A stretch of 38,964 nucleotides of DNA, taken from the NCBI GenBank assembly GCA_003169235.1, contig PMPX01000214.1, positions 1 through 38,964 on the forward strand. Direction: 5' to 3'. The position numbers were made by a program, and so were the translations under genes. Numbering within the stretch: the stretch's first letter is position 1; every line of letters starts with the position of its first letter. The notes beneath the pieces were generated by a model, which was not told the origin of the DNA, ran no database searches, and worked only from the letters and a program-made list of their open reading frames with translations. This document shows, in pieces, positions 15,326 through 31,087 of this stretch. This DNA is from Acidimicrobiaceae bacterium. Its GTDB lineage: Bacteria > Actinomycetota > Acidimicrobiia > Acidimicrobiales > RAAP-2.

Positions 15326-16885
15326 GTGGTGACGACGGGCTTGGTGGCCTCCGTCCCCTCGGTGCCGGCGGAGCCGGTCTCTGAGGAGAGAGTCGAGACG
15401 CGGCGCTGGCGCCTCGCCGTCGTCGCGGAGCTGGTGCTCGGGGGGATCCTCGGGTCGTTGTTCCTCGGCACCCACAGCCTCTTCCTCGACGAGTCCGTGA
15501 GTGCCAGCCTGGCCACGGCACCCTGGCACCGTTTCGTCAACGTCGTGAGCCACCGCGAGGCGAACATGGTGCTCTACTACGTGCTGTTGCGCGGGTGGGT
15601 CGTGCTGGGTCACAGCGAGATCGCACTCCGGAGCCTGTCCGTGGTCCTCGCCGTCGGCGCGTTGTGGGTGGTGATCCTGCTGGCGCGCTCGCTGTTCGGC
15701 CGTCGCGTGGCGCTCCTCGCCGGGCTGCTGCTCGCAGTGAACCCGCTGTACGTCCAGTTCGCGCAGGACGTCCGGGGGTACTCCCTGGCGCTCCTCCTGG
15801 TCTCCGCGTCCTGCCTCCTCTTCGTCCGGGGCATCCGGCAGGTCGATCCGCCTCCCCGGCTGTGCTGGACGGCCTACACCCTCGTTACCGCGCTGGCCGC
15901 CTACAGCAACTTCTGGGCGGCGTTGGTCCCCGTCGCGCAGGCGTTGTCCCTGGCGTTCTTGCCGTCGGGACGCATCCCGTGGCGCCGGGTGCTGCCGTCG
16001 GCTGCCGCACTGGTCGTGCTGCTGGTGCCGCTGGGGCTGCTGATCCAGTCCACCGACAGTGCCGGCGTCAACTGGGCCGCGGGGTCCTCGGCCGGGCATC
16101 TGTTCACGCACATCCGGGCGACGGTCCCGCACGCCGTGCTCGACGTGCTGGTACTGGCGGCGGCGGTCTTCGTCGTGGCGGTGATCTTCCTGGCGCGCCG
16201 GCGCCCGGGCGTGACCGGCGTGTTCGCCCGCCACTGGCCGCTCCTGTTCACGGCGTGCTGGCTGGTCGTGCCGGTCGCCGCCGTGATCCTTCTCTCCCTG
16301 GTGGACAAGCCGCTGCTCGTGGTGCGCTACCTGATGGTCAGTCTTCCGCCGGCGATCCTTCTCGTGGCGCTGGCGATCGACCGCATCGCCTCGCTCACCC
16401 GCCGCGGCGCCACCGCCGTCGCGGCGGTGCTGCTGGTGCTGGCCGTCGGCCTGTCGGCTGTCGGTGTCGCGCAGTGGTATTCCCTGGGCGGGCCCCAGGA
16501 CTTCCGCTCGACCGTCGCGTACATCGCCGCCCGGGCGCAGCCGGGGGACGGCGTGCTCATCTTCGCCCCCTACGAGCGGGTGCCCGTCGAGTGGTACCTG
16601 GTCGGGCGGCCGGTCACCGAGCGCGAGGTGCACCCCGTCTACCCGACGACGGCGTGGGGTGTGGACCCGCTGTACTTCGACGGGAACGTGCCGTTCAGCG
16701 CGAGCGCGGTCGAGCAGGCGGCATCGGGGTACCAGCGGCTCTGGCTCGTGAGCGTGACGGCGGACCAGTCCCTGTACCCGGCTCAGGCGGCGGCGGTGGA
16801 CGCGGCCCTGCGACGGGCCGGGTTCACGCCGGCCGGCACCCGGACCTTCCGTGGTGTGGACGTCACCGAAGAGGTGCGGGGGTGA
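15326..16885 (+). CDS. GT-C type membrane glycosyltransferase (GT39/mannosyltransferase-like)
   Basis: A polytopic membrane protein of about 519 residues with ~10-12 helices. The first extracytoplasmic loop has SLFLDESVSASLA, where GT-C enzymes carry the catalytic acidic pair. A later loop has NPLYVQFAQDVRGYSL, typical of the GT39/ArnT-like superfamily, whose members use polyprenyl-phosphate sugars. A soluble tail follows the last helix (~residue 385 on). The start is uncertain: two GTGs at 15326 and 15329 precede the first hydrophobic segment, but the G-rich stretch at 15293-15303 is far upstream. A longer frame from 15197 would overlap the priming transferase and lacks similarity. It probably decorates the polymer outside the membrane. 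The stop overlaps the next GTG in GTGA. Confidence 0.85.
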   Translation: MVTTGLVASVPSVPAEPVSEERVETRRWRLAVVAELVLGGILGSLFLGTHSLFLDESVSASLATAPWHRFVNVVSHREANMVLYYVLLRGWVVLGHSEIALRSLSVVLAVGALWVVILLARSLFGRRVALLAGLLLAVNPLYVQFAQDVRGYSLALLLVSASCLLFVRGIRQVDPPPRLCWTAYTLVTALAAYSNFWAALVPVAQALSLAFLPSGRIPWRRVLPSAAALVVLLVPLGLLIQSTDSAGVNWAAGSSAGHLFTHIRATVPHAVLDVLVLAAAVFVVAVIFLARRRPGVTGVFARHWPLLFTACWLVVPVAAVILLSLVDKPLLVVRYLMVSLPPAILLVALAIDRIASLTRRGATAVAAVLLVLAVGLSAVGVAQWYSLGGPQDFRSTVAYIAARAQPGDGVLIFAPYERVPVEWYLVGRPVTEREVHPVYPTTAWGVDPLYFDGNVPFSASAVEQAASGYQRLWLVSVTADQSLYPAQAAAVDAALRRAGFTPAGTRTFRGVDVTEEVRG

Positions 16886-18069
16886 GCCGGCCGCGCCTCG
16901 GAACGAGCGCGGCGGTGGGCGCACTGGTCGCCGGCGCCACCGCCGGCCATGTCCTCTATCCGGCGTGGTTGGCGTGGCGCACCCGCGGCGGCCGCGGCCG
17001 GGTCGCACCCGCGACGGCACCCCCGGCACCCGGCGCATGGCCGGACCTCACCGTCCTGGTGCCGGCCTACCGGGAGGCCGGTGTGATCGCCGACAAGTTG
17101 GACGACCTCCGGGCGAACGGCTATCCGGGCCGCCTCCGGATCCTCGTGATCGCCGACGGGGATCCCGAGACCGCGGCGGCCGCGGAGCGAGCGGGCGCCC
17201 GCGCCCTGGCCTCTGAGCAGCGGCTCGGCAAGTCCCAAGCCCTCAACTGGGGCTTCGTGGAGGCCGATACCCCAATCGTGGTGATCAGCGACGCCAACAA
17301 CCGCCTTGCCCCCGGTGCCCTCGCCGCGGTGGTGGAGCACTTTGCCGATCCCGAGGTGGGTGCGGTGGCCGGCGAGAAGCTCGAAGACGACGGCGGAGGG
17401 GGCGAGAGCCTGTACTGGAGGTTCGAGTCGTGGCTGAAGCAGCGAGAGGACCGGCTGGGCACGACGATCGGCCTGGTGGGCGAGCTCTCCGCCATCCGCA
17501 CCGAGGCCTGGCGTCCCATCCCCGCCGACGTCGCCATCGACGATCTGTGGGCGGCGCTCGACATCATTGAGCAGGGCTACCGGGTCGCCTACGAACCCCG
17601 GGCCCGGGCGCTCGATCCGGCCGTGCCGTCCCTGGCCGTCCAGTGGGAGCGCCGGACGCGCAACGTCTCCGGCGCGCTGCACGTCCTCGTGCGCCGCCGC
17701 CGGCAGCTGCGGCCGTCGGCGGGTCTCGTGGCCGCCGAGCTGTGGGGGCATCGCCTGGTCCGCTTCACGGTGGGCCCCCTGTCGCATCTGGCCCTCGTGG
17801 CTCTCTCGGCCTCCAAGGTGCGTTCGAGCAGGCTGGCCCGGCTCTTCCTGTTCGCCAACCTGTGCGGCTGCGCCGGCCTGGTGGCGAGCACCCGGGCCGT
17901 CGACACCGCGGCCGGGGATGCCGCGGTCGGACCCACCCCCCGCCGCCTGCTGGCCGCCGCGGCGGCGGGGTCGGGACAGGTCATGTTCCTCCAGGCCGTC
18001 GCGCTGGGCGGCATGGCGCGCTACGCGCGTGGTGACCGGCCGACCATGTGGTCGACTGTGGAGCGATGA
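16882..18069 (+). CDS. Glycosyltransferase family 2, membrane-associated
   Basis: A 395-residue GT-A-fold transferase of the cellulose-synthase-like style. A short hydrophobic N-terminus (~8-30) is followed by DLTVLVPAYREAGVI (55-69), VIADGDPE (nucleotide-binding Asp), VVISDANNR with D137 in the metal-binding position, VAIDDLWAALDI with the likely catalytic base near D220/D221, and QWERRTRN (254-261), a variant of the QxxRW motif. C-terminal hydrophobic segments (~290-385) suggest membrane attachment. The GTG start at 16882 overlaps the previous stop by four bases, indicating translational coupling. The sugar donor is unknown. It probably extends the lipid-linked repeat unit on the cytoplasmic side. 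Confidence 0.9.
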   Translation: MSRPRLGTSAAVGALVAGATAGHVLYPAWLAWRTRGGRGRVAPATAPPAPGAWPDLTVLVPAYREAGVIADKLDDLRANGYPGRLRILVIADGDPETAAAAERAGARALASEQRLGKSQALNWGFVEADTPIVVISDANNRLAPGALAAVVEHFADPEVGAVAGEKLEDDGGGGESLYWRFESWLKQREDRLGTTIGLVGELSAIRTEAWRPIPADVAIDDLWAALDIIEQGYRVAYEPRARALDPAVPSLAVQWERRTRNVSGALHVLVRRRRQLRPSAGLVAAELWGHRLVRFTVGPLSHLALVALSASKVRSSRLARLFLFANLCGCAGLVASTRAVDTAAGDAAVGPTPRRLLAAAAAGSGQVMFLQAVALGGMARYARGDRPTMWSTVER

Positions 18070-19292
18070 GTGGCAAGGCGACGCGGCCGGACCCCGGCGC
18101 ACCCGGCCGGCTGAGCGTCCTCGTCGTTTCGATCTCGCCCGAGGTGTGGGGGGCCGAACGGAGCCTGCTCGGCCTGGCGCCGCTCCTGGAGGAGCAGGGG
18201 GTCGCGCTGACGTTGGCGTCGCCACCCGGCCGCCTCTCCGAGGCGTGGTCGAGCCTGGGTCTCCCTCATGTGGAGTTCTCCGCCCCGGACCGCCTCGGAC
18301 TGCGGGCGGACGGCGGCGGACGCCCCGGCGTGCGCGCCTTGTCGAAGGAGATCGCCAGCACGGCGCGCAGCGCGCGACGCCTGGCGCAGCTGGCGCGGGG
18401 TGCGGACGTGGTCCACTCCAACAGCTTGTGGGCCCATCTGGACTGTGCCGTGGCCGGCCGGCTCGCCCGCCGGCCGGTGGTCCTGGAACTGCACGACCTC
18501 GTGCGTCCCGGGCTGGGCCGCGTCGTGCTGAGGGCGTCCGTGCGGCTGGCGTCCGGCGGCATCGCGGTCAGCCAGGCGGTCGCGGACACAGTGGGGACGG
18601 GCCTGCGTCGCCTCCGCGTCATTCCCCAGGCCGTGGACCCGGAGCGATTCCATCCCGGCCCGCCGGACGCGTCCTGGAGAGCACGGCTGAGCAGCCGACC
18701 CGACGAGCCCATCGTCGGTGTGGTCGGCCGTGTCGATCCCGAGAAGGGCATCAGGACCGTGGTGCAGGCCATGAGCATGCTCGACGGGCCGGCGCGGCGC
18801 AGCCACCTTGCCGTCGTGGGTGCCCCGGGCCTCGACGACGGCGCCTACGAGGCCCAAGTGCGAGCGGAAGCGTCAGACCTGCTCGGCGAGCGCGCCCGCT
18901 TCGTGGGCCCGGTCGACGAGGTGCCCGCCGTGTTGCGTTCGCTCGACGTGCTCGTCAACGCCTCCACGTCGGAGCCTTTCGGGTTGAGCATCCTGGAGGC
19001 ACAGGCGTCCGGCGTCCCGGTGATCGGAACCGATGCTGGCGGCATCCCCGAGTTCGTCACCGATGGCCGGACGGGGCTGCTCGTCGCGCCCGGTCGACCG
19101 GATGCCCTGGCGGCCGGCCTCGACCGCCTGCTCGGAGCGCCGGCCCTGCGCCACGAACTGGCGGCCGCGGCCCGCCACGACGTCGTGGCGCATCACACGT
19201 TGGCCGCCCGGGCGCGGGCGGTGGCCGACCTGTACCGCGAGGTGGCCCGGGCGAGGGCCACGGAAGGCGCGGGGGCGGGGGCGGCGCGGTGA
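18066..19292 (+). CDS. Glycosyltransferase family 4 (first of three)
   Basis: A 408-residue GT-B-fold retaining glycosyltransferase. The N-terminal domain has the acceptor-side VWGAERSLLGLAPLL (28-42) and ELHDLVRPG. The C-terminal nucleotide-sugar domain shows VVGRVDPEKGIRTV (219-232) and the EX7E motif SEPFGLSILEA (E303 and E311), followed by GTDAGGIPEF. The ATG at 18066 overlaps the previous stop (ATGA); the frame is open a little further upstream but lacks a better site. It is probably cytoplasmic, adding one sugar to the undecaprenyl-linked intermediate. The linkage is not predictable. Confidence 0.92.
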   Translation: MSGKATRPDPGAPGRLSVLVVSISPEVWGAERSLLGLAPLLEEQGVALTLASPPGRLSEAWSSLGLPHVEFSAPDRLGLRADGGGRPGVRALSKEIASTARSARRLAQLARGADVVHSNSLWAHLDCAVAGRLARRPVVLELHDLVRPGLGRVVLRASVRLASGGIAVSQAVADTVGTGLRRLRVIPQAVDPERFHPGPPDASWRARLSSRPDEPIVGVVGRVDPEKGIRTVVQAMSMLDGPARRSHLAVVGAPGLDDGAYEAQVRAEASDLLGERARFVGPVDEVPAVLRSLDVLVNASTSEPFGLSILEAQASGVPVIGTDAGGIPEFVTDGRTGLLVAPGRPDALAAGLDRLLGAPALRHELAAAARHDVVAHHTLAARARAVADLYREVARARATEGAGAGAAR

Positions 19293-20431
19293 GGACCCTC
19301 ATGGTGACCAAGTTCCTGCCGTTGCCGGACAACAACGGGGGGCACCAGCGCTCCCTGGCGATCGCCCGCCGCCTCGCCGGCCTCGGCGACCTCGTGCTGT
19401 GTGGGTACGACGACGGCACCGCGGACAGGGCGGGCCTGCGCGACCTCGGGATCGACGTCCGGGCCGTCCCGTGGCGGGTGACGCCGGTGGGGGTGGCCCG
19501 TGGGATGCTGGCGACGCGCAGCCTCTCGGCGGCACGGTTCTGGAGCCCGGCGATGGTCGAGACGGTCCGCGGCGCGGCGGACGAAATGGCCGTCGACCTG
19601 TTGCAGGTCGAGTACCAGCAGATGGTGCCGTTCGTGCTCGACCTCCCGGCGAAGACATCGGTCCTCGACCTCCACAACGTCGAGTCGGCCCTCGTGGCGA
19701 GCTACGCGCGGGCCCGCCGGGGTGTGCCCGCCGCGCTGCTCCGCTCCGAGTCGGCCGCGTTGAGGCGGATGGAGCGACGCACGATCGGGGAATTCGACCA
19801 CGTGGTCGTGGTGAGCGAGGAGGAGCGGGCCAGGCTGCCCGCCGGCGCTCGCTCCGTCCTCGTCTGCCCCAACGGCCGGGAGCCGTCGGTGGTGCTCCCC
19901 GACGCGCCGGACGCGGTCGTGGCCTTCGTGGCCACCATGGGATGGGCCCCCAACGTCGATGCCGCCGTCTGGCTCGGCCGCGACATCTGGCCCCGGGTGC
20001 TGGCCCGGGTTCCCGGGGCCCAACTCCTCATCGTCGGCAAGGACCCGGCCCCGGCGGTGCGCGCCCTGGCCGGCGGGAGCGTCCAGGTGACCGGAACGGT
20101 GGACGACGTGACCCCCTACCTGGCACGGTCCCGCGTCGTCGTCGCCCCGCTGCGGGCCGGCGGAGGTACCCGGCTCAAGATCATGGAGGCGCTCGACGTC
20201 GGCCGGCCCGTCGTGGCCACCTCCGTCGGCTGCGAGGGGATGCAGGACCTGGTGGGCCGGGGCGTGGTCGTGGCGGACAGTGCCGGGGGACTGGCCGACG
20301 CCATCGCGGGGCTCCTGCTCGACCCCGCCCGGGCCTCAGCGCTCGGGCAGGCCGGCCACGACGCGGTGGTCGCCGACCACACCTGGGACGCCGCGCTGGC
20401 GCCGCTGCTCCAGGCGGTACGCCCGTGTTGA
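19289..20431 (+). CDS. Glycosyltransferase family 4 (second of three)
   Basis: A 380-residue GT-B enzyme with an unusually short opening, MRTLMVTKFLPLPDNNGGHQRS, typical of WcaI/RfaG-like family members that begin directly with the first beta strand. LDLHNVESAL (127-136) lies in the N-domain. The C-domain has VATMGWAPNVDAAVWL (214-229) and APLRAGGGTRLKIMEALDVG (286-305) with the conserved EA pair, then GCEGMQ. The GTG at 19289 overlaps the preceding stop (GTGA). The sequence differs clearly from the other two GT4s here, so it is a distinct enzyme rather than a recent duplicate. Confidence 0.92.
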   Translation: MRTLMVTKFLPLPDNNGGHQRSLAIARRLAGLGDLVLCGYDDGTADRAGLRDLGIDVRAVPWRVTPVGVARGMLATRSLSAARFWSPAMVETVRGAADEMAVDLLQVEYQQMVPFVLDLPAKTSVLDLHNVESALVASYARARRGVPAALLRSESAALRRMERRTIGEFDHVVVVSEEERARLPAGARSVLVCPNGREPSVVLPDAPDAVVAFVATMGWAPNVDAAVWLGRDIWPRVLARVPGAQLLIVGKDPAPAVRALAGGSVQVTGTVDDVTPYLARSRVVVAPLRAGGGTRLKIMEALDVGRPVVATSVGCEGMQDLVGRGVVVADSAGGLADAIAGLLLDPARASALGQAGHDAVVADHTWDAALAPLLQAVRPC

Positions 20432-21870
20432 AGCTGGTGGAGGCCGTCATCGCGCTCGGACTGGCGGCCGCCGTCGTGGCGCTCTTCGTTCGTTGGGAGC
20501 GGGAGGGCAAGGAGCAGCTCGTGCCGCTCGTCCTCCTCGGGCTGTTGGTGGTGGAGGCCACGATCTACGCCGACGACAACACGCTGCCGCGCAGCATCTT
20601 CCACCCCGGATCGGGGTCGGCGCAGCTGCGACTGCCCGAGATCTACATCACGCTCGCGCTGGTGGCGCGCCTCATCGCGCGGGGGAAGCCCACGCGGATC
20701 GGCCTCCCGGCCGGCCTCTGGCTCGCCTTCGCGGCCTGGTTGGCGGTCGGCGCGGTGGAGGGGAGGCTCTATCACAACGCCCTGTCGCAGGATCTCTTCG
20801 AGGCCAAGGACATCCTGTACATCGTCGGGGCGTACGCGCTGGCCGCGGGAGTGCCGCTGCGGCGCTACTTCGACCGAGGCGACCTGTTCAAGCTCGGAAG
20901 CCTCTGCGTCGCGTGCGCGTCGCTGCTGGACGTGATGACGATCGCGCACATCGGCCTCAACACGAACCTGCCACTCCTCCCGCTGCAGAACTTCGGCCTC
21001 GACGGTTCCGGGGCGGCGGCCCTGTTCGTCGCCATCGGAACGATGTGCTTCCTCACCAGGTTGGCGTCCGGAACCGTCCGGGTACGCCATGTCGTGGCGT
21101 TGGTCCCGTTGATCGCCGCCGTCGTGTTGGCCGACCAGCGTGCCGTGCTGGTGAATCTCGGCGCGGTGGTCCTGGTGCTGCTGCTCGTGCTGCTCGTCGG
21201 GCACCGCCAGAGCGTGGGCCAGAGCCTCCACGTCAAGTCGGGCCAGGTCGTGGTGACCCTCCTGGCCGTCGTCGCGGTCGGCATCGTGGTCGTGGTCGTG
21301 CCGGCCGCGGCCGACCGTCAGCCGGCGCGGATCCCGCTCGCCTCGACCTTCGAGAACCTCTTCCACGGTGGGGCGAAGGCGGAGTCGGCTCAGGATCGCC
21401 TGAACCTGGCGTCCGAGGCGGAAGCCCTCATTCCCCAGCACCTGGTCATCGGATGGGGCCTCGGGGTGGAGCTGCAGTACTACGAAACCGGGTCCCGCTC
21501 GGTGAAGACCATCGCGTACGCCCACAACATCGTGCTGGACCTGTGGCTCCGGGTCGGCCTCATCGGCCTGCTGCTCTTCGTCTTCGCGCTGTGGGCTTCG
21601 GTCGCCGATGGGCTCAAGGTGTGGCGACGACATACGGACCCGGTGACCGCCGCCCTGGCCCTGGCTCTGGTGGCCGTGCTGGCGGGACTCCTGGCCACGG
21701 CGTTCATTGAGCCCCTTCTCGACGAGTACCGGCTTGCCACCCTGTTCGGTGTCAGCATCGGCATGCTGCGGGCCACGGTCACGTCCATGGACATGACGAG
21801 CCGATTGCCGACCTGGCGGGGCGAGGTGAACCGCTTGCGGCCCGCGGCGGGGGGTGTCCCGTGGACCTAG
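20425..21870 (+). CDS. O-antigen ligase / Wzy-like polysaccharide polymerase
   Basis: A multi-pass membrane protein of about 481 residues with ~11-12 hydrophobic helices. VLADQRAVLVNLGAVVL and the large outer loop (FENLFHGGAKAESAQDRLNL) are followed by AYAHNIVLDLWLRVGLIGLLLFV, the characteristic Wzy_C / O-antigen-ligase segment. In a Wzx/Wzy-type pathway it would join flipped repeat units into a polymer on the outer face of the membrane. It may instead be a ligase; the two cannot be separated by eye. The start is GTG at 20425 (7-base overlap with the previous gene) or TTG at 20428 (4-base TTGA overlap). Confidence 0.88.
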   Translation: MLKLVEAVIALGLAAAVVALFVRWEREGKEQLVPLVLLGLLVVEATIYADDNTLPRSIFHPGSGSAQLRLPEIYITLALVARLIARGKPTRIGLPAGLWLAFAAWLAVGAVEGRLYHNALSQDLFEAKDILYIVGAYALAAGVPLRRYFDRGDLFKLGSLCVACASLLDVMTIAHIGLNTNLPLLPLQNFGLDGSGAAALFVAIGTMCFLTRLASGTVRVRHVVALVPLIAAVVLADQRAVLVNLGAVVLVLLLVLLVGHRQSVGQSLHVKSGQVVVTLLAVVAVGIVVVVVPAAADRQPARIPLASTFENLFHGGAKAESAQDRLNLASEAEALIPQHLVIGWGLGVELQYYETGSRSVKTIAYAHNIVLDLWLRVGLIGLLLFVFALWASVADGLKVWRRHTDPVTAALALALVAVLAGLLATAFIEPLLDEYRLATLFGVSIGMLRATVTSMDMTSRLPTWRGEVNRLRPAAGGVPWT

Positions 21871-23003
21871 CGATCGGGATCCACTCCATGGCCCCCGCCG
21901 GGGGGACGGAGCTGAACGTGTTCCAGGTCTCGCGCGGGTTGGCGCAGCGCGGCCATGCCATCGACCTGATCGCGGCGCGGGACGGCAGCCTGGCCGACGA
22001 GTACCGGACCTTCTGCCGGAGTGTGACCAGGCGTCCGGTCTTCGACTTCGCCCGCTCGACGGCCCTGCGCGACCTGGTGCGCATGGCACCGGCCGTGGTC
22101 GCGGCCGCCAGGAAGAAGCCCGACGTCGTCTACCCCAATCGGTTCGCCGAGATCGTATGGGCGGTGGCGGCGGGCCGGCTGTCGGGGGCACCCGTCGTCT
22201 GTCACCTCCACGAGATCCGTCATGCCCGACCGGGGTCGTTCCCCAATGAGCACGTGCGCCGGTTCATCGCCGTCTCCGAGTTCCTCAAAGGCCAGTGGGT
22301 GGAGATCGGGCTCAACCCGGATCTCATCGACGTGGTCCACAACGGGGTGTCGTCCGACCAGTACCCCGCCGGCGGGAAGGAGGAGCGGGCCAGCGCCCGT
22401 GCCCGTCTCGGACTTCCCCAGGAGGGGTTCATCGCCCTGTACTTCGGGCGCCTCGACCCGGAGAAGGGGATCGACGTACTGCTCGACGCCTGGCGGAGGC
22501 TCGGCCTGGGCGGCGAAGAGGGGCGGCTCCTGCTCGTCGGCTCACCGAGCACCCACCTCCGGGACGGGAACCGGTACGTCGAGGGTCTCCAGGCGAACGC
22601 CCCGCCGGGGTGCATCTGGCTGCCGTCGCAGGCGGACGTGGTGCCCCCGTTGCACGCCGCGGACGTGGTGGTCCTCCCGACCATCTGCGACGAGGGCTTC
22701 CCGCGGGTGATCGTCGAGGCGATGGCCACCGGCCGCCCGGCCCTCGCCTCCCGGATCGGCGGGATCCCCGAGCTCCTCACGGGGGAGTTCGAGCGGTTCC
22801 TGATGGAGCCCGGCGATGCGGGGATGATCGCCTCCGCCCTGGACAGCCTCGTAGGCTGGCAGCAGCGGGAGCCTGAGCTGGCCGGCCGCTGCAGCGCTCA
22901 TATTCGGGATCACTTCTCACTCGACCGGCTGGTGGAAGGTGTGGAGCGGTCGCTCACCGCGGCCGCCGGAGAGGTGCAAGGAGAGGGATCGGCGTGGATC
23001 TGA
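21861..23003 (+). CDS. Glycosyltransferase family 4 (third of three)
   Basis: A 380-residue GT-B enzyme. The N-domain has IHSMAPAGGTELNVFQVSRG (7-26) for acceptor/donor binding and VCHLHEIRHARPG (113-125). The C-domain has YFGRLDPEKGIDVLLDAW (194-211) and the EX7E motif DEGFPRVIVEAMATGRP (E278 and E286), followed by SRIGGIPELL. It starts with GTG at 21861, ten bases inside the polymerase gene, and ends ten bases inside the next. The neighbouring Wzy, Wzz and Wzx functions place it in repeat-unit assembly. The sugar specificity is not known. Confidence 0.92.
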   Translation: MDLAIGIHSMAPAGGTELNVFQVSRGLAQRGHAIDLIAARDGSLADEYRTFCRSVTRRPVFDFARSTALRDLVRMAPAVVAAARKKPDVVYPNRFAEIVWAVAAGRLSGAPVVCHLHEIRHARPGSFPNEHVRRFIAVSEFLKGQWVEIGLNPDLIDVVHNGVSSDQYPAGGKEERASARARLGLPQEGFIALYFGRLDPEKGIDVLLDAWRRLGLGGEEGRLLLVGSPSTHLRDGNRYVEGLQANAPPGCIWLPSQADVVPPLHAADVVVLPTICDEGFPRVIVEAMATGRPALASRIGGIPELLTGEFERFLMEPGDAGMIASALDSLVGWQQREPELAGRCSAHIRDHFSLDRLVEGVERSLTAAAGEVQGEGSAWI

Positions 23004-24349
23004 GGCAGATCGTGCGCACCGTGCGCGCCAACTGGGTCGTGGCTCTGGTCACCTTCCTCGTGTGCGTGGGCATCGGCGCAGCCTTCGCCGTGCTGCCTGC
23101 GAAGCAGTACCAGGCCTCGGTCGTGCTCCTGGCGCAGCCTCCGCCGGGTGCCTCCGACCCGGGCTCGGACGTGGGTGCGATCCAGATCGAGGTCCCCCAG
23201 ATCGTGGTGGAAGCGACCAACGCGGGCGTGGCCGACCAGGCGCGCGCGCTCGTGCCCGCCCGCTACCGGTCCGAGCCCGTGAAACTGTCGGCAACCGGTG
23301 ATCCCGGCTCCAACTCGGTGACCATCGTCGCCACCAGCAGCGACCCGGCCGTCGCCCAGGCCTATGCCAACGCCCTGGCGGCCAAGGTGCTGCAGCTCAC
23401 GAACCGCGAGGCGACGACGACCCTCGTCCTGTCGGAACTGGGTCCGGCTCAGCTCCCGACCACACCGACGAATCCCCGCAAGACCATCGTCGTGGCGTCC
23501 ATCGCCCTCGGTCTGATCCTGGCCGTGTTCGCCGCCCTGGAGGCGGCCTCCCTGCGCCGTCGTTTCGTGACCGCCGACGAGATCCGCGAGCGGGTCGGGC
23601 TGACCGTCCTGGGCGAGGTGCCGTTGCTGATCCACGCCGGCGGAGGCCCTGCCGAGATCTTCGAATCCACCGAGGACCAGCGCGCCCTCGAGGCGTTCCA
23701 GCAGCTTCGCAGCTCGCTCCACCTCCTGTTCCAGGAGACGAGCCCCACCATCGCGGTGACCTCCTGGGATGCTCGTGAGGGCAAGTCGTCCGTCGCGTCC
23801 CACGTGGCGTGGGCGCTGGCGATGCCGGGTCGCTCCGTCGTGGCGGTCGACTGCGACCTGCGCAAGCCCACGCTCCACGAGATCTTCGGGGTGGCCCTCT
23901 CGCCCGGCGTGAGCGACTACTTCGCCGCGGCCGGCCCGGACGAGCTCATGGCCCCCACGGGCAACCGCTACCTCGATCTGATCCCGGCCGGCGTGCCGGG
24001 ACGGCACCCGACGGACATCGTGACGGCCGACGTGCCCCGGCTCCTGGCCGCCCTCCACGAGTCGGACCGGACGATCATCGTCGACTGCCCGCCACTGTCG
24101 GGCGTGGCCGAGACCAGGATCCTGGTGGCCAAGGCGGACGCCGTGGTGCTCGTGGTCGACGCCCGGAAGTTCGACCCCGAGCATCTCGAGCAGAGCCTGG
24201 TGCAGCTGCGAGCCTCCGGTGCCAACGTGGCGGGCATCGTGCTGAACCGCGTGCGACGCCGGAAGGTCGACGAGAGCTACGGCTACTACGGGTCGACCTC
24301 CGAGCAGGAGGCCAGCACGTGGCGCCGCTGGCTCGCCCGATCCGGCTAG
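22994..24349 (+). CDS. Wzz/BY-kinase fusion: polysaccharide co-polymerase with tyrosine-kinase-like domain
   Basis: A 451-residue inner-membrane protein that sets polymer chain length. Two helices (~13-34 and ~164-184) bracket an extracellular Wzz domain. The cytoplasmic part is a bacterial tyrosine-kinase (CpsD/Etk-like) P-loop domain: Walker A TSWDAREGKSS (256-266), Walker A' VDCDLRKP (285-292) and Walker B IIVDCPP (361-367). Walker A has DAREGKSS rather than the more usual PGEGKS/T. The C-terminus has only a small tyrosine cluster, YGYYG, with Y429, Y431 and Y432, as target for autophosphorylation. No separate phosphatase is seen nearby. The GTG at 22994 overlaps the GT4 gene by ten bases. 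Confidence 0.92.
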   Translation: MDLRQIVRTVRANWVVALVTFLVCVGIGAAFAVLPAKQYQASVVLLAQPPPGASDPGSDVGAIQIEVPQIVVEATNAGVADQARALVPARYRSEPVKLSATGDPGSNSVTIVATSSDPAVAQAYANALAAKVLQLTNREATTTLVLSELGPAQLPTTPTNPRKTIVVASIALGLILAVFAALEAASLRRRFVTADEIRERVGLTVLGEVPLLIHAGGGPAEIFESTEDQRALEAFQQLRSSLHLLFQETSPTIAVTSWDAREGKSSVASHVAWALAMPGRSVVAVDCDLRKPTLHEIFGVALSPGVSDYFAAAGPDELMAPTGNRYLDLIPAGVPGRHPTDIVTADVPRLLAALHESDRTIIVDCPPLSGVAETRILVAKADAVVLVVDARKFDPEHLEQSLVQLRASGANVAGIVLNRVRRRKVDESYGYYGSTSEQEASTWRRWLARSG

Positions 24350-24353
24350 GGAC

Positions 24354-25967
24354 GTGCTGAGCGAGCCAGAGTTCCCGCCCGGCGACAGGGCCGGGAACAG
24401 CCGGCCCAAGAAGGCGAGCCTCCGCCGCAACGTGACCACCAACTACGCCGTGGTCGTCGTGCTCGTGGTGGTCGGGTTCGTCACCACGCCGATCCTCACC
24501 CACCAGCTCGGCATCCTCCGTTACGGAGTGTGGGCGCTCATCGGCTCGCTCATCCCGTTCCTCGAGCTCTTGGAACTGGGGTTCGCCAGCGCCACGGTGG
24601 CCTTCGTCAGCCGGCACCTCGAGCTCGAGGACGACGAGAAGGTCGCGGCGACGCTCAACACCTCGTTCCTGTGCCTGTCGGCGCTCGGGGTCCTCGCCTT
24701 CGCGGGCGTCGTGGTGTTCGCGATCTTCCTTCCCGACCTCATCACCAGCATCCCCAAGAGCCTGGTGGGCCAGGCCCAGTTCCTCCTCCTGCTCCTCGCA
24801 TTCGACATGGCGATCTCCATCCCGATGGACACGTACGGGGGCGCGCTGTGCGCCCTGCAGCGATTCGACCTCCTGAACTACAGCCTGATCGCGGTCATGG
24901 TGGCGCAGGCCCTCGGCTGGGTCGTCGTCCTGTGGCTCCACGGTGGGCTCATCGCGCTCGGTGCTGTCACGGTCGCGATCAGCCTGGCGGGCCAGGCCTC
25001 GCGCGGCGTGATGGTGCACCGCCTCCTGCCGTGGTTCCATCTGTCCCTGCGACGGTTCGACCGCAGCCTCCTGCGCACGTTCACCGCAGCGTCGGGCCGG
25101 TACTCGGTGCTCCAGGTCGCGGACGCGGTGATCGCGCTCTCCGACGTCCTGATCGTCGGCGCCGCCGCGGGGGTGCGCGCCGCCGCCATTTACGCAGTCG
25201 CACAGCGGCTGGGCCTGCTTCCGGCCCGGATCGTCCAACCGCGGACGACGCTCTTGTTCTCGAAGGCGGGGCAGCTGGCAGCACGGGACAACCGGTCGGG
25301 TCTGCGGGACAGCACCGACGAGGTCGTGCGCTACGTGCAGTACCTCGCCATCCCCGCCGCGATTGCGTTGGGGTTCCTGGCCGGGCCGACCATCGAGGCA
25401 TGGGTGGGGCCCCTGTACCGCGAGGCGGCCACGGTGATCGGCTTGCTGTGCCTCGCGGCCGTCGTGCAGGTCTGGGCGCTGACGCTCCGCAACGTGCTCA
25501 GCGGCTCGGGCCGTCCGACGCTCGCCGCCGTGCTCTACAGCATCGAGGCGGTGTTGCACGTCTCCCTCGGCATCGCGCTGGCTTCCCGTTACGGAGCGAC
25601 CGGCATGGCCGAGGCCGTGCTGATCAGCGTCGTGGTGATGGAGGGGATGCTCATGCTGCCCCTGGCGTACCGTCGCATTGAGGACTCGTTCGCGCGCCGG
25701 GCGCGCCGCGCCGTGCGCACCCTGGGCCTGCCGGCGCTCGTCACGGGCGCTCTCGCCTGGGTCCTCGGGCGCGGCGCGGGCCCGCTCTTCGCCTTTACCG
25801 ACTCGCATGGCCGCCTGCTCGGCCTGACCGCGGTCGCCGCCGCCGCGGTCGCGCTCCTCGCCGTGTTCTACGCGCTCCTCCTGGTGTGCCTGCCGTCCGA
25901 TCAGCGGCAACGGCTCGTCGCCCGCTCCCGCAGCTCGTTGGGCCGGTTCACCGCACGGGCCCACTAG
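24354..25967 (+). CDS. Wzx-type polysaccharide flippase
   Basis: A 537-residue membrane protein of the MOP (MATE/Wzx/MurJ) exporter superfamily with about 14 helices. It starts with a charged cytoplasmic stretch (EFPPGDRAGNSRPKKASLRR), then NYAVVVVLVVVGFVTTPILT and QLGILRYGVWALIGSL, which match the polysaccharide-synthesis transporter pattern. It would flip the undecaprenyl-linked repeat unit to the outer face for the polymerase. The GTG at 24354 follows the previous stop by four bases, without a strong ribosome binding site. It is the last gene of the tight run begun at 13869. Confidence 0.9.
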   Translation: MLSEPEFPPGDRAGNSRPKKASLRRNVTTNYAVVVVLVVVGFVTTPILTHQLGILRYGVWALIGSLIPFLELLELGFASATVAFVSRHLELEDDEKVAATLNTSFLCLSALGVLAFAGVVVFAIFLPDLITSIPKSLVGQAQFLLLLLAFDMAISIPMDTYGGALCALQRFDLLNYSLIAVMVAQALGWVVVLWLHGGLIALGAVTVAISLAGQASRGVMVHRLLPWFHLSLRRFDRSLLRTFTAASGRYSVLQVADAVIALSDVLIVGAAAGVRAAAIYAVAQRLGLLPARIVQPRTTLLFSKAGQLAARDNRSGLRDSTDEVVRYVQYLAIPAAIALGFLAGPTIEAWVGPLYREAATVIGLLCLAAVVQVWALTLRNVLSGSGRPTLAAVLYSIEAVLHVSLGIALASRYGATGMAEAVLISVVVMEGMLMLPLAYRRIEDSFARRARRAVRTLGLPALVTGALAWVLGRGAGPLFAFTDSHGRLLGLTAVAAAAVALLAVFYALLLVCLPSDQRQRLVARSRSSLGRFTARAH

Positions 25968-26151: not shown

Positions 26152-26205
26152 ATGCATGACCAGACCACTGAGGACCGGCCTCGCCGGCCCGGAGCCCACC
26201 GGTGA
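26152..26205 (+). CDS. Possible 17-codon mini-ORF coupled to the double hydrolase
   Basis: ATG at 26152 has AGAGG (26141-26145) six bases upstream and encodes MHDQTTEDRPRRPGAHR. Its TGA overlaps the GTG of the next gene (GTGA), as in the coupled genes upstream. A GTG at 26137 could extend it to 22 codons. It may be a leader peptide or microprotein, or chance. There is no domain to judge it by. Confidence 0.35.
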   Translation: MHDQTTEDRPRRPGAHR

Positions 26206-28013
26206 CCGCTGACGCCGGTCCCCCCAACGAGGTGGAGTCCGTCGCGCAGTGGCTGGGGAGACCCGACAGGCCGCTGTTCGCCTGGCTGGACGTGCCCGAC
26301 GACGATCTGGTCGCCGGTGTCGCCGTCATCTGCCCGACCATGGGGTTGGAGGCCGCCTACTCGGCCCGGGCGCTGCGCGACCTGGGGCGACGGTTGGCCG
26401 CATCCCGGTGGGCCGCGCTTCGGCTGGACTACGCGGGCACAGGAGATTCGGCCGGCACCTGGACGGACCCCGGCCTCGTGGCGGAGTGGCTGCAGGGTGT
26501 CCGCGGCGCCATCGGGTGCGCCCGTTCGCTCGGGGCGCCGAGGGTGGCCGTGGTGGGCCTCCGGCTCGGCGCCACGCTGGCGGCGGCCGAGCTCGCCGAC
26601 GGCGGGGGCGTGGACGACCTGGTGTTGTGGGACCCGTGCGCGTCGGGCCGGAAGTTCCTCCGCGAGCAACGCGCGCTGTGGGCCTTCCTGCGCGACCAGG
26701 CCACCGAATGGGGGACGCTGCGCGAGGGTGAGGTGTGGGGCTCGGGAGGGGAGAGCACGGACGCCTCGCTCGAGGCGCCGGGCATCCTGTTCTCAGCCGG
26801 CACCGTCGCGGAATTGGAGCCGGTGGCGATCGCCGGCGGCGATCGCAGCCTGGCCTCGCGGGAGCTGCTGCTGACCCGTGAGGGGAGGAAGCTCGACCGC
26901 GTGCTGGCGGAACGGCTGGCGCTGCCCCATGTGGAGACCGAGCAGATCGCCGGCCAGGAAGCGCTCCTCGATGTCGACGCCGTCACACCGGAGCCGACGC
27001 TGGAACGGATCGTGCACTGGGTCACCGAGCCCCGGGGGCCTCTCGTCCGGATCGAACGACCGACGCACCAGACCACGGTGACTCTCCGGAGCGAGGGCCG
27101 GCCCAGCGTGCGCGAGCGACCCCTCGACATGGGGTCCGCCCACCTCTTCGGCGTGCTGAGCGAGCCGGAGCACCAGGCCGAGCCGTCGACGCCGACGGTC
27201 GTCTTCCTCAACGTGGGCCGGATCGGTCACGAGGGCCCGGCCCGCCTGTGGGTGGACCTGTCCCGGTCGTGGGCGGCCGAGGGGCTGCGGTGTGTGCGGG
27301 TGGACTTCAGCGGGATCGGCGACAGCCCCACGAGGCCCGGCCGGACCGAGTTGGTCGAGTTCCCCGCCGATGCGCTCGAGGATCTGGACGACATCCGTCG
27401 GGCCGTCACCGCGGAGGGGGGCACGGAGCTCGTCTTGGTCGGGCTGTGCTCGGGCGGCTACCACGCCATTGAGTCGGCGCTCGCCGCACCCGTCGCGTCC
27501 GTCTGCCTGATCAATCCCGCAATCACCTACTACCGGGGGGTGCAGCACCCCGAGCGACGATTCGAGCCCAACGTCGAGGCCTCCGGGCTCAGCGACCGCG
27601 AGGCCTGGGGGTCGACCCGCCCCTTTGTGTCGACCGCGTTGTCGCGGCTCGCGCCGCTGCGGGACGCGGCGCGGCGGGTCCCCGGCAGCTGGTGGGTCCT
27701 CAAGCGGTGGTTCGTGACGGCGAGCCCGGGCCGGATGTTCGAGCGCCTGGCCCGGAGCGGCGTGGACGTCCTCGTCGTGTCGGGGAGCGTCGAGGAGCGC
27801 AAGTTGTGTGAGGGCGAGCGGCGCCGGATCGGCGCGCTGATCCGCAAGGGTGGCCTCAGCATGGAGACCATCCCCAACCTGGAACACACCCTCTTGGAGC
27901 GCACCGGCCGCGACCGCGTGTCCGCGCTGCTGCACGCCCACGTCACACGCCGTGTCGCCGGGGCGCGAGGGGCCGGTCCGGCCGGGCGCGGCGCCATCGG
28001 CCTCCGCCGCTGA
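26202..28013 (+). CDS. Two-domain alpha/beta hydrolase with unusual active sites
   Basis: A 603-residue protein made of two alpha/beta-hydrolase domains. Domain 1 (~20-275) has PTMGLEAAYSARALRDLGRR and LRLDYAGTGDSAG, but the nucleophile elbow reads GLRLG (119-123) with Arg in place of Ser, so it is probably not catalytic. Domain 2 (~305-585) has NVGRIGHEGPARLW, VDFSGIGDSP and the elbow GLCSGG (414-419), placing Cys416 as nucleophile as in dienelactone-hydrolase-like enzymes. H562 (NLEHTLLE) could complete the site. The layout recalls the paired hydrolases found with exosortase/polysaccharide loci, here fused, although no exosortase is present. GGAG at 26191-26194 supports the GTG at 26202. 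The substrate is unknown; acyl groups on the polymer or carrier lipids are guesses. Confidence 0.8.
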   Translation: MTADAGPPNEVESVAQWLGRPDRPLFAWLDVPDDDLVAGVAVICPTMGLEAAYSARALRDLGRRLAASRWAALRLDYAGTGDSAGTWTDPGLVAEWLQGVRGAIGCARSLGAPRVAVVGLRLGATLAAAELADGGGVDDLVLWDPCASGRKFLREQRALWAFLRDQATEWGTLREGEVWGSGGESTDASLEAPGILFSAGTVAELEPVAIAGGDRSLASRELLLTREGRKLDRVLAERLALPHVETEQIAGQEALLDVDAVTPEPTLERIVHWVTEPRGPLVRIERPTHQTTVTLRSEGRPSVRERPLDMGSAHLFGVLSEPEHQAEPSTPTVVFLNVGRIGHEGPARLWVDLSRSWAAEGLRCVRVDFSGIGDSPTRPGRTELVEFPADALEDLDDIRRAVTAEGGTELVLVGLCSGGYHAIESALAAPVASVCLINPAITYYRGVQHPERRFEPNVEASGLSDREAWGSTRPFVSTALSRLAPLRDAARRVPGSWWVLKRWFVTASPGRMFERLARSGVDVLVVSGSVEERKLCEGERRRIGALIRKGGLSMETIPNLEHTLLERTGRDRVSALLHAHVTRRVAGARGAGPAGRGAIGLRR

Positions 28014-28028: not shown

Positions 28029-29468
28029 TCAGGCCCGTGCGGCCTGGTGCGGCCCCCGGTCCGGATGCGGCACCGCGGTGACGAGTTCGGCGAAGCAGCG
28101 CTCCATGCCCCGGGCGAGAACCTCCGCGTCGGGGCAGGCGACCGGGTCGGCGAGGATGCCGATCGCCAGCTGGCCGTCGTAGGACAGGGCGGCCACTCCC
28201 ACGCTGAGGTTGCCCGCCAGGGGCACGATCGGGACGGCCTCGAGCATGCGGGCGCCCAGCACGTAGAGCGGGACGTCGGGACCGGGCACGTTCGTGACGA
28301 CCAGGTTGACGAACGGCTGGTGGTGGACGAGATGGCTGGCCGCCGACAGTGCCGCCGGCGGCAGGGCGTCGAGCGAGGACAGGAACAGGTGCGTGGCCAG
28401 TGGCTGGGCGTGGTCCTTGGAGTCCCGCTCGGCCCGGGCCACCTCCTGCAGGCGATCGGCCGCGGGTGCGGCACCGATCGGGAGCCGCACCACCATGGCG
28501 GAGACGTCGTTGCCGAGCCGATGGTCGCCGTGGTGATCGGCCCCGACCGGCACGAGGACGTGCAGCCGGCGCCCCTCCATCACCTCGCCCCGCGCCGAGA
28601 GCAGATCGTGGACCCCGCCGGCGATCGCCGTCAGGAGCAGATCGTTGAGGGTGACGCCGAACCGGCGTTCGGCCCGGCGGAGTTCGTCCATGGGCTGGCG
28701 CACCACGACGACCTCGCGATCGAAGCCGACCGGGGTGTTCAAGGAGCAGTCGGGCGTGACGGGCGACAGCGGGAGCAGGCTGCGGAAGGCCGACGTGTAG
28801 CGCGCCAGCACGTGGCCCGCCGACGACGGGTGCCACACGGCGTGCCACCCGTCGGCGGCGACCGTGCGGGCGAACCCGGCGAGACGGGCCGCACCGCCCG
28901 TCGCCACGGCCACCCTCCCCGGGGGCGGGGTGGGCTGCCACCCGTCGGATTCGTGCGGGGCGGGCGCACGGGGCTCCAGGTCGAGCAGGACCGTGGCCAG
29001 CTCGACGCCGGCCAGGCCGTCCGCCATGGAGTGGTGCAGCATCTCGAGCAGCGCGACGCGCCCGCCCTCGAGCCCGTCGATCAACCAGATATCCCAGAGC
29101 GGCCGGGTGCGGTCGAGCCGGCATGACACCAGCTGGGCGCAGAGCTCCAGCAGCTGGGCCTCTGTGCCGGGTGCGGGCAGCGCGGCCTGGTGGATGTGGT
29201 CGGTGATGTCGAAATCGGGTTCGTCGACCCACACCGGCGCGGCCTCGCCGAGCGCCGGGAACCGGACGACCTTGCGCAGCTTGGGCACGAGGTGCAGCCG
29301 GCTCTCCACCTCGGCGCGCACCTCGTCGAGCCGGAGGCACCCACGGGCGTCGTGCAGCGGGCCACCCTCGAAGATCCCGATGAAGCTCATGTGCATCGGG
29401 GTGTGGTCCGACTCCATGTAGAGGAAGGACGCATCGAGCGGCGTGAGGGAGTCGGTGGGGGCCGTCAT
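28029..29468 (-). CDS. Wax ester synthase / diacylglycerol acyltransferase (WS/DGAT), second of pair
   Basis: A 479-residue WS/DGAT-family acyltransferase, which transfers fatty acyl-CoA to an alcohol or diacylglycerol to make storage wax esters or triacylglycerol. Typical opening LTPLDASFLYMESDHTPMHM; the active-site motif HHSMADG (HHxxxDG) lies near residue 145. Later family blocks include GVTLNDLLLTAIAGG, NDVSAMVVRLP and NLVVTNVPGPDVPLY. The ATG at 29468 overlaps the stop of the other WS/DGAT gene (ATGA), so I prefer it over the longer frame from 29504. It is convergent with the double hydrolase, 15 bases apart. Confidence 0.92.
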   Translation of the reverse strand: MTAPTDSLTPLDASFLYMESDHTPMHMSFIGIFEGGPLHDARGCLRLDEVRAEVESRLHLVPKLRKVVRFPALGEAAPVWVDEPDFDITDHIHQAALPAPGTEAQLLELCAQLVSCRLDRTRPLWDIWLIDGLEGGRVALLEMLHHSMADGLAGVELATVLLDLEPRAPAPHESDGWQPTPPPGRVAVATGGAARLAGFARTVAADGWHAVWHPSSAGHVLARYTSAFRSLLPLSPVTPDCSLNTPVGFDREVVVVRQPMDELRRAERRFGVTLNDLLLTAIAGGVHDLLSARGEVMEGRRLHVLVPVGADHHGDHRLGNDVSAMVVRLPIGAAPAADRLQEVARAERDSKDHAQPLATHLFLSSLDALPPAALSAASHLVHHQPFVNLVVTNVPGPDVPLYVLGARMLEAVPIVPLAGNLSVGVAALSYDGQLAIGILADPVACPDAEVLARGMERCFAELVTAVPHPDRGPHQAARA

Positions 29469-30859
29469 GCCGACCGCGGGGGGTCGGGTCGCCGGGCGGA
29501 GCACACCTCGGCGAAGCCGTCCTCAATGCAGGCGGCCAGCTTCGGGCTGTCGGGCACGGCGGCGACGTCGGCGGTGATGGTGACGCAGGCACGGTTCGCG
29601 GCAGACACGAGCGACACGTTGAGCGCCGCCCCCGACGGCGGTGACACCGCGTAAATCCCCTCCACGCCCGTGCCGGCAAGGAAGGCCTGGAACGGCGGCC
29701 CGGGGATGTTGGTGATGCAGAAGTCGTCGCCCAGGAGCATGGAGCTCCACAGGTTGCGGGCCACGACGGCCGGCAACGCGCTGAGCACGGTGGCCATCAC
29801 GTCACTCAGGGCCAAGCCGGGCGCGTGCTTCCACTGCGCCGCGTTCTGGCGGACCTCCGCCATGCAGTCCGCCACGTCGGTGTGGACCGGGATCACGAAC
29901 CGGGCGGGGACGAAGTGGTTCCCCCCCGCCCCCTCGCCACCCCCGCGCACGTTCACGGGCATGAGGGCCCGGAAGCCCGAGCTCGTGGCACCGTGCTGCT
30001 CGTGGTAGAGGCTGAGGCCGCGCACGACGGACGCCACGAACACGTCGTTGACCGTGCCGCCCCACGCCCGCGCCACGCTCTTGAGGTTGGTGAGGTCGAA
30101 CTCCAGGACTTCGACGTGGCGTCGGAAGCTCCGCCCCGTCATGATCGATGAGATCGGCTTGCCCGCCGGGGCCATCAACCGGGCGACCGAGCCGCCCACC
30201 GCGATCAGCTGTCCGAGCGAGCGAACGGGGTGGGTCACCGCGTCGACGGCGCCGCTGACGAGGCCGATCGGATCCGGCGGCAGGGGCATGCGACGGCGCC
30301 ACGACCCGTTCGGTCCACCGTCCGGCGACCGGCCCGCGTCCCCCCTCGTCGAAGGCGGCGCCACCGGGGCGGAGGGGTCGAAGAGATTGGCCAGCACCGC
30401 CAGGCCGCCCACGCCGTCGATGAGCGCATGGTGGACCTTCATCACGAGGGCAGCGCGATCGCCCATGCCCTCGACCAGGACGGCCTCCCACAGGGGGAGC
30501 GCCGAGTCGAATCCGCTGGTCGCCATCGTCTGGGCCATGTCGAGGACGTCCCGCAGGCTTCCGTGCCCGGCCAGGCGCATGCGCCGCAGGTGGGTGTCCA
30601 GGTCGAAGGACGCGTCGGGCACGAATTGGGGGCGGCCCCGACCCGGGGCCCGGGTCACGGCCCGCGAGCGCAGGCGTGGGACGGCCACCGTGAGCGCGCC
30701 GACGCGGGCACGGACCTCCGCCCAGTCGGGTCTCCCGTCCAGGACCATGATGGCCACGATGGTCGGGCGCATCACCGGATCGGCACCGATCGTCCACAGC
30801 AGGGCGTCGGAGCCGCTCATGGTGTCGGCAGCCGGCGCGTGCATCGCTTCTACTCCCAT
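29465..30859 (-). CDS. Wax ester synthase / diacylglycerol acyltransferase (WS/DGAT), first of pair
   Basis: A 464-residue WS/DGAT-family protein. It begins with MSGSDALLWTIGADPVMRP, has the active-site motif HHALIDG (HHxxxDG), then GGTVNDVFVASVVRGL, ALMPVNVRG, GGNHFVPARF and FCITNIPGPPF in the usual order. It is only distantly similar to its neighbour, so the pair are paralogues of different subgroups and not a fresh duplication. ATG at 30859 (GAGAAGGGG upstream) or 30844 (GGAG upstream) may start it. The two are translationally coupled and may have different acceptor preferences. It is divergent from the MFS gene. Confidence 0.92.
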   Translation of the reverse strand: MGVEAMHAPAADTMSGSDALLWTIGADPVMRPTIVAIMVLDGRPDWAEVRARVGALTVAVPRLRSRAVTRAPGRGRPQFVPDASFDLDTHLRRMRLAGHGSLRDVLDMAQTMATSGFDSALPLWEAVLVEGMGDRAALVMKVHHALIDGVGGLAVLANLFDPSAPVAPPSTRGDAGRSPDGGPNGSWRRRMPLPPDPIGLVSGAVDAVTHPVRSLGQLIAVGGSVARLMAPAGKPISSIMTGRSFRRHVEVLEFDLTNLKSVARAWGGTVNDVFVASVVRGLSLYHEQHGATSSGFRALMPVNVRGGGEGAGGNHFVPARFVIPVHTDVADCMAEVRQNAAQWKHAPGLALSDVMATVLSALPAVVARNLWSSMLLGDDFCITNIPGPPFQAFLAGTGVEGIYAVSPPSGAALNVSLVSAANRACVTITADVAAVPDSPKLAACIEDGFAEVCSARRPDPPRSA

Positions 30860-31087
30860 GACACAACCCCTTCTCCGTGCGATTGTGGGTTCGTGCGGGC
30901 CACTGGCATAGAGCCGGAAGTCCCCAATTCCGGGCGCCCCGGCCCCGGCGGACGGACGATGTGTCTTTGGACCCTTCAGGTCGCCCCGCCGCCGCCCTAG
31001 CATCGGTCCTGGCCCGACGCCGTGGCCGGCCCGGAACGGGGCCGTGGGGGGCATGGGGCTACGGAGTTTCGGGAAAGGGGATCCATC
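30860..31087. promoter_or_regulatory. Divergent promoter region, WS/DGAT pair / MFS transporter
   Basis: 228 bases between divergent starts. It contains an inverted repeat CGGAA/TTCCG (about 30911-30928) whose loop has GTCCCCAA, resembling half of a DevR box. This is suggestive only. No tRNA or small gene was seen. Confidence 0.3.

Follow-up and report, generated by a model that had tools for sequence, protein, structure and literature searches.

The fused double alpha/beta-hydrolase described here belongs to a family whose genes are tied to carrier-protein cassettes and to flippases, and this tie is the main new result of the analysis. We give about an even chance (roughly 50%) to the reading that the fused hydrolase2-hydrolase1 module is a carrier-protein-dependent acyltransferase in polysaccharide assembly, in which domain 1 is a non-catalytic docking half. 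The evidence comes from the window, which is the whole stretch of 38,964 nucleotides of an Acidimicrobiaceae bacterium that was analysed, and from relatives of its fused gene in other genomes.

The fused protein and its polysaccharide locus

The fused gene stands last in a row of genes that are all on the forward strand, in the order WbaP, GT2, GT4, GT4, Wzy, GT4, Wzz/Wzc, Wzx and fusion. The window gene calls were based on GC3 and the frames of the GT2 and Wzy genes were set by Pfam; Pfam also identified the neighbours, in agreement with the Wzx/Wzy setting given in the original prediction. The genes, domains and codons are as follows.

13869-15269, + strand: WbaP-type polyprenyl-phosphate sugar transferase (PF02397)
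15595-18069, + strand: GT2-containing glycosyltransferase protein
18048-19292, + strand: GT4-type glycosyltransferase
19292-20431, + strand: GT4-type glycosyltransferase
20425-21870, + strand: Wzy-type polymerase/ligase (PF04932, E 6e-17)
21861-23003, + strand: GT4-type glycosyltransferase
22994-24349, + strand: Wzz/Wzc-like chain-length protein with a P-loop domain (PF02706, CbiA)
24354-25967, + strand: Wzx-type flippase, directly upstream of the fusion (PF13440; 12 hydrophobic segments by a simple hydrophobicity window)
26202-28013, + strand: fused double alpha/beta-hydrolase, hydr2-like plus hydr1-like (603 aa, GTG start)
26202-27071, + strand: domain 1, nucleophile-less half, relative of TIGR03101 (hydr2_PEP)
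26562-26564, + strand: Arg121 codon, domain 1 elbow (R 46/50, G 4/50; elbow in the model)
27072-28010, + strand: domain 2, Cys half, relative of TIGR03100 (hydr1_PEP) and Pfam Abhydrolase_6
27447-27449, + strand: Cys416 codon, putative nucleophile (50/50; elbow in the model)
27792-27794, + strand: Glu531 codon, putative triad acid after strand 522-528 (D/E 44/50; model)
27885-27887, + strand: His562 codon, putative triad base (50/50)

Neither an acyl carrier protein (ACP) nor an amino acid:[carrier protein] ligase (aa:CP ligase) was found in the window, and six-frame translation of the 234 bp between the Wzx gene and the fused ORF revealed no ACP. The PP-binding proteins of this genome (82% complete, 380 contigs) are on other contigs, and the window copy presumably borrows a carrier encoded elsewhere in the genome. 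An AMP-ligase at 3199-4743 was ruled out as a partner, since it lies 23 kb off and outside the operon. The window also holds two tandem WS/DGAT wax ester synthase genes (28029-30862, - strand), convergent with the fusion, and a protein with a GH26-type glycosidase match (9684-11402) upstream of the polysaccharide operon.

A fused hydrolase pair with Arg in one elbow and Cys in the other had been noticed, and this is what the single ORF encodes. The motif GLRLG (residues 119-123) places Arg121 at the elbow position of domain 1, the nucleophile of which is lost, and GLCSGG (residues 414-419) places Cys416 in that of domain 2; the G-x-S-x-G elbow of the Ser alpha/beta hydrolases is found in neither half. 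The AlphaFold2 model of the whole protein (pLDDT 83, pTM 0.85) consists of two hydrolase folds, in which Arg121 lies between strand 115-120 and helix 122-132 and Cys416 between strand 410-415 and helix 417-428, the turn at which a structure prediction had been expected to place it. The alpha/beta-hydrolase fold with this elbow topology was seen in both halves in the model and in Foldseek matches, and domain 2 modelled alone gave the same fold as in the full-length model. In the model, the putative Cys-acid-His order is compatible with the fold, strand 522-528 being followed by Glu531 and strand 553-557 by His562. The second half is recognised by Pfam as an alpha/beta hydrolase; the first is left nearly blank. 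Profile-profile comparison showed homology between the N-terminal halves of domains 1 and 2 along some 135 columns and matched R121 with C416; the two domains are therefore tandem members of one subfamily.

The solved structures that match the fused protein are single generic esterases, lipases and thioesterases, with no double-domain relative among the matches listed. The closest are feruloyl and cinnamoyl esterases and monoglyceride lipases, which, like the adjoining Wzx/Wzy genes, would suit an esterase removing or editing acyl groups on the polysaccharide or the carrier lipid. We regard such an esterase as improbable: the enzymes named use Ser, the carrier-protein linkage would be left unexplained, and the fused protein, in which a simple scan found no hydrophobic signal or membrane segment and which is predicted to be cytoplasmic, would not meet exported polymer. 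Editing of the polymer or carrier lipid was also the function first proposed for this protein; the neighbourhoods indicate instead carrier-protein thioester chemistry tied to polysaccharide assembly.

Conservation and kinship of the family

The fusion was found in 5 of the 296 genomes of a class-wide sample, and a scan of named genomes with a three-sequence alignment as query gave 35 loci, mostly from Acidimicrobiia and other Actinomycetota, some being labelled Proteobacteria, Acidobacteria or Planctomycetota. The total is at least 36 fused loci, including one from Pseudomonadota (L070). The genome of the window encodes a paralogue of the fused gene on contig C276, and the nearest relatives of the window protein (L020 and L021) are about 40% identical to it. 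Split pairs have the same Arg/Cys elbows, bar one pair with Gly, and no match to the family was found in phage records. Since the fusion occurs also in relatives, and the Arg/Cys elbows in relatives, split pairs and hydr2/hydr1 pairs, neither is peculiar to the window; the elbows are a family signature, and the earlier view that a single fused chain of this kind is unusual has to be given up. A functional study of the hydrolase pair was not found in the literature. The family is widespread and functionally uncharacterised, and the window fusion is a variant within a known kind.

R121, C416 and H562 are kept in all of the 36 fused sequences and are within the 11 invariant columns of 29 sequences whose mean column identity is about 30%. 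When sequences from plasmids, split pairs and exosortase loci are added to the 36 fused ones, the set numbers 50; C416 and H562 are each present in all 50, an acid at position 531 in 44, and Arg at position 121 in 46, which rules out that the elbow-like motifs arose by chance. The remaining 4 members have Gly, not Arg, at position 121, and this counts against the acyltransferase reading. Mean column identity is 37% in domain 1 versus 27% in domain 2; thus the nucleophile-less half is the better conserved and is not a decaying pseudogene half. Judged from the alignments, domain 1 is certainly under constraint, and its near-invariant Arg and better conservation suggest a binding role; the 'regulatory' role once assigned to it is unsupported.

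The better conservation of domain 1, a half without catalytic residues, and the existence of a hydrolase-flippase fusion (see below) would also be in keeping with a scaffold in which neither half is catalytic and which unites carrier protein, glycosyltransferases and flippase. A pure scaffold would have no need of an invariant Cys416 and His562 or of an acid kept in 44 of 50 sequences, and we consider it quite unlikely.

The protein was also compared with the exosortase-associated hydrolase models of NCBIfam, the status of which is only 'hypothetical equivalog'. Domain 1 scored 76.3 bits (E 2.8e-21) against TIGR03101, under the curated cut-off of 202.75 bits, and domain 2 scored 46.1 bits (E 3.8e-12) against TIGR03100, under that of 168.45 bits. 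In Pseudomonadota pairs with hydr2 over the TIGR03101 cut-off, the hydr2 elbows are LWGLRSG and LWAVRHG and the hydr1 elbows LWGLCDG and LWGECDS. The window protein shares the Arg elbow (R121) with the TIGR03101 members over the cut-off (L068, L069) and the Cys elbow (C416) with the TIGR03100-type halves of L068, L069 and L070. The hydr1 half of the Pseudomonadota fusion in L070 passes the TIGR03100 cut-off, and its contig also encodes an exosortase, at a distance of about 25 kb. No exosortase gene (PF09721) was found in the window locus, and among 18 other genomes that have a fused locus a PF09721 match was obtained in only one, that of L020. The genome of the window has one PF09721 protein (69-76 bits; contig C215, L081:3352-5148), which adjoins purH and lies away from the hydrolase pairs. 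As far as sequence comparison indicates, the predicted exosortase link is real at the level of the family, as kinship with TIGR03101 and TIGR03100, and does not extend to membership.

Carrier-protein cassettes and flippases

Genes that recur near the fused ones encode an ACPS-superfamily phosphopantetheinyl transferase (PPTase), an acyl-CoA dehydrogenase (ACAD), a GH2 glycosidase, DUF1839 and a class-II synthetase-like protein, the last of which matches PDB 3mey/4h2w with E about 1e-76 and is amino acid:[carrier protein] ligase 1. Within 10 kb of the 36 fused loci, the ligase was found at 18, ACP at 19, PPTase at 17, ACAD at 14, GH2 at 14, DUF1839 at 12 and a glycosyltransferase at 14; 5 of the 36 are from Williamsia, so the loci are not all independent. 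The aa:CP ligase occurs in 3 of the 296 class genomes; each of these 3 belongs to the 5 that have the fusion, and in each the two are linked on a contig (chance figure 2e-6, which ignores phylogeny). The C276 paralogue has ACP, ACAD and aa:CP ligase nearby, and in both L020 and L021 ACP and PPTase adjoin the hydrolase, L021 having the aa:CP ligase as well. An operon ACP-ACAD-ligase-DUF1839-GH2-hydrolase is annotated on plasmids of Azospirillum, Phyllobacterium and Mycetohabitans. By hand comparison of 60 ligase-bearing plasmid records, which are redundant, the hydrolase is within 25 kb in 33 and within 5.5 kb in 21. Counted against the acyltransferase reading are the absence of ACP and aa:CP ligase from the window, the 15 of 36 fused loci in which the searches found no carrier gene, and the cassettes of Caballeronia, R. 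leguminosarum (IS-rich) and Tsukamurella, which have no hydrolase nearby.

The link to flippases is seen most directly on plasmid p3 of Rhizobium sp. NLR16a (L072:8191-11502), where a Wzx-type flippase (PF13440), hydr2 and hydr1 form one chain of 1103 aa, encoded within an aa:CP ligase operon together with a GT4. A Wzx gene is near the fused hydrolase in L025, L030 and L033. On a plasmid of Shinella sp. WSC3-e (L080:29047-36433), a flippase and the fused hydrolase are followed, after one unknown gene, by ACP, a TIGR03098-like ligase and a TIGR03099-like decarboxylase in an unbroken row. No exosortase is annotated in the Shinella stretch read; this exosortase-A-like set has an aa:CP ligase cassette about 20 kb from it.

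The split pairs adjoin NRPSs in 4 of 6 loci. In Hydrogenophaga borbori, the locus of an Arg/Cys pair also holds a further, divergent hydr pair (L052:14620-16325) that has Gly instead of Arg and is near another NRPS gene. On a Priestia megaterium plasmid (L077:7532-16079), an ACP/ACAD/aa:CP ligase set is accompanied by a type II thioesterase, an ATP-grasp protein, an alanine permease and an alanine racemase, hinting at alanine as the substrate there.

It is conceivable, though we doubt it, that the fused protein is a proofreading (type II) thioesterase, in which Cys416 hydrolyses misloaded or stalled groups off carrier proteins and domain 1 binds the carrier. The NRPS-linked pairs are located where type II thioesterases are common, and a genuine one (PF00975, E 2.7e-40) is encoded a few genes on from the Priestia set. 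A housekeeping editor would, however, leave the fusion and adjacency to Wzx unexplained, and an invariant Cys is unusual in a hydrolytic thioesterase. A Cys elbow steers to acyl transfer: the C1146S change in ObiF leads to hydrolysis (PMC6668435), so that Ser, not Cys, favours the latter. By analogy, ObiF would be a precedent for Cys favouring transfer in the window protein; SulM is another case of a Cys thioesterase (PMC11298585).

Proposed mechanism and comparison with known systems

Triads of alpha/beta hydrolases attack acyl groups, and NRPS thioesterases use carrier-protein thioesters as substrate. In the acyltransferase that we propose, an adenylating enzyme (aa:CP ligase, AMP-forming ligase or NRPS, depending on the locus) would charge a phosphopantetheine carrier protein with an amino acid or another small acid, and Cys416, with Glu531 and His562, would attack the thioester to give an acyl-cysteine. 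The acyl group would then pass to a sugar hydroxyl or amine, probably on an undecaprenyl-linked repeat unit, which Wzx would flip after the transfer. Domain 1, all catalysis lost, would be a conserved docking half, with Arg121 positioned to hold an anionic group, either the carrier phosphopantetheine or an acceptor phosphate. We infer transfer rather than hydrolysis, and likewise the substrate, the acceptor and the domain 1 ligand.

Work of 2010 reportedly established that aa:CP ligases load carrier proteins with amino acids; neither an established pathway nor a product of the aa:CP pathway was found in the literature. That a cell-surface sugar is aminoacylated through this pathway was independently predicted in 2010, in a note added in proof (PMC2922099), and this speaks for the acyltransferase reading. 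The same paper assigns the transfer to Atu2574, an uncharacterised ORF in tight linkage, not to the hydrolase, which counts against that reading. From operon order, Atu2574 is probably a DUF1839 protein; DUF1839 is predicted to be papain-like and glycan-processing (PMC10318531). The fused hydrolase may be an additional or alternative transferase tied to the flippase step.

We tentatively suggest, with somewhat less confidence than for the acyltransferase itself, that the orphan aa:CP ligase pathway has its missing transferase in the fused Arg/Cys protein, which would pass a carrier-bound, possibly ACAD-oxidised, aminoacyl group to a lipid-linked sugar just before flipping, and that the same transfer module recurs elsewhere as the exosortase-A hydrolase pair and as the NRPS-linked pairs. 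The evidence links the aa:CP ligases and the exosortase-A hydrolases with one module, recognisable by its Arg/Cys signature, and, through a direct fusion, with a flippase; it offers a candidate transfer step in a testable pathway from amino acid to carrier protein, Cys enzyme, lipid-linked sugar and flippase. If true, this would be a further route to decorate bacterial surface polymers, beside acetyltransferases and Dlt-type alanylation.

Among known systems, the aa:CP ligase operons (Bll0957-type, PDB 3mey/4h2w) are those in which relatives of the window gene, including the C276 paralogue, recur, whereas the window copy is in a Wzx/Wzy locus without ligase or ACP. With the Cys thioesterase domains of the ObiF and SulM NRPSs the protein has in common the alpha/beta-hydrolase fold and the Cys nucleophile, and it may share their carrier-protein thioester substrate and preference for transfer; those are single, cyclising domains at the NRPS C-terminus with no Arg half. 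From the exosortase-A hydrolases (TIGR03101/TIGR03100) the window protein differs in its sub-cut-off scores, its single chain, the absence of an exosortase from the window and its own branch in a midpoint-rooted tree, but it resembles them in domain order, in the Arg elbow of hydr2, in the Cys elbow of hydr1 and in its polysaccharide setting.
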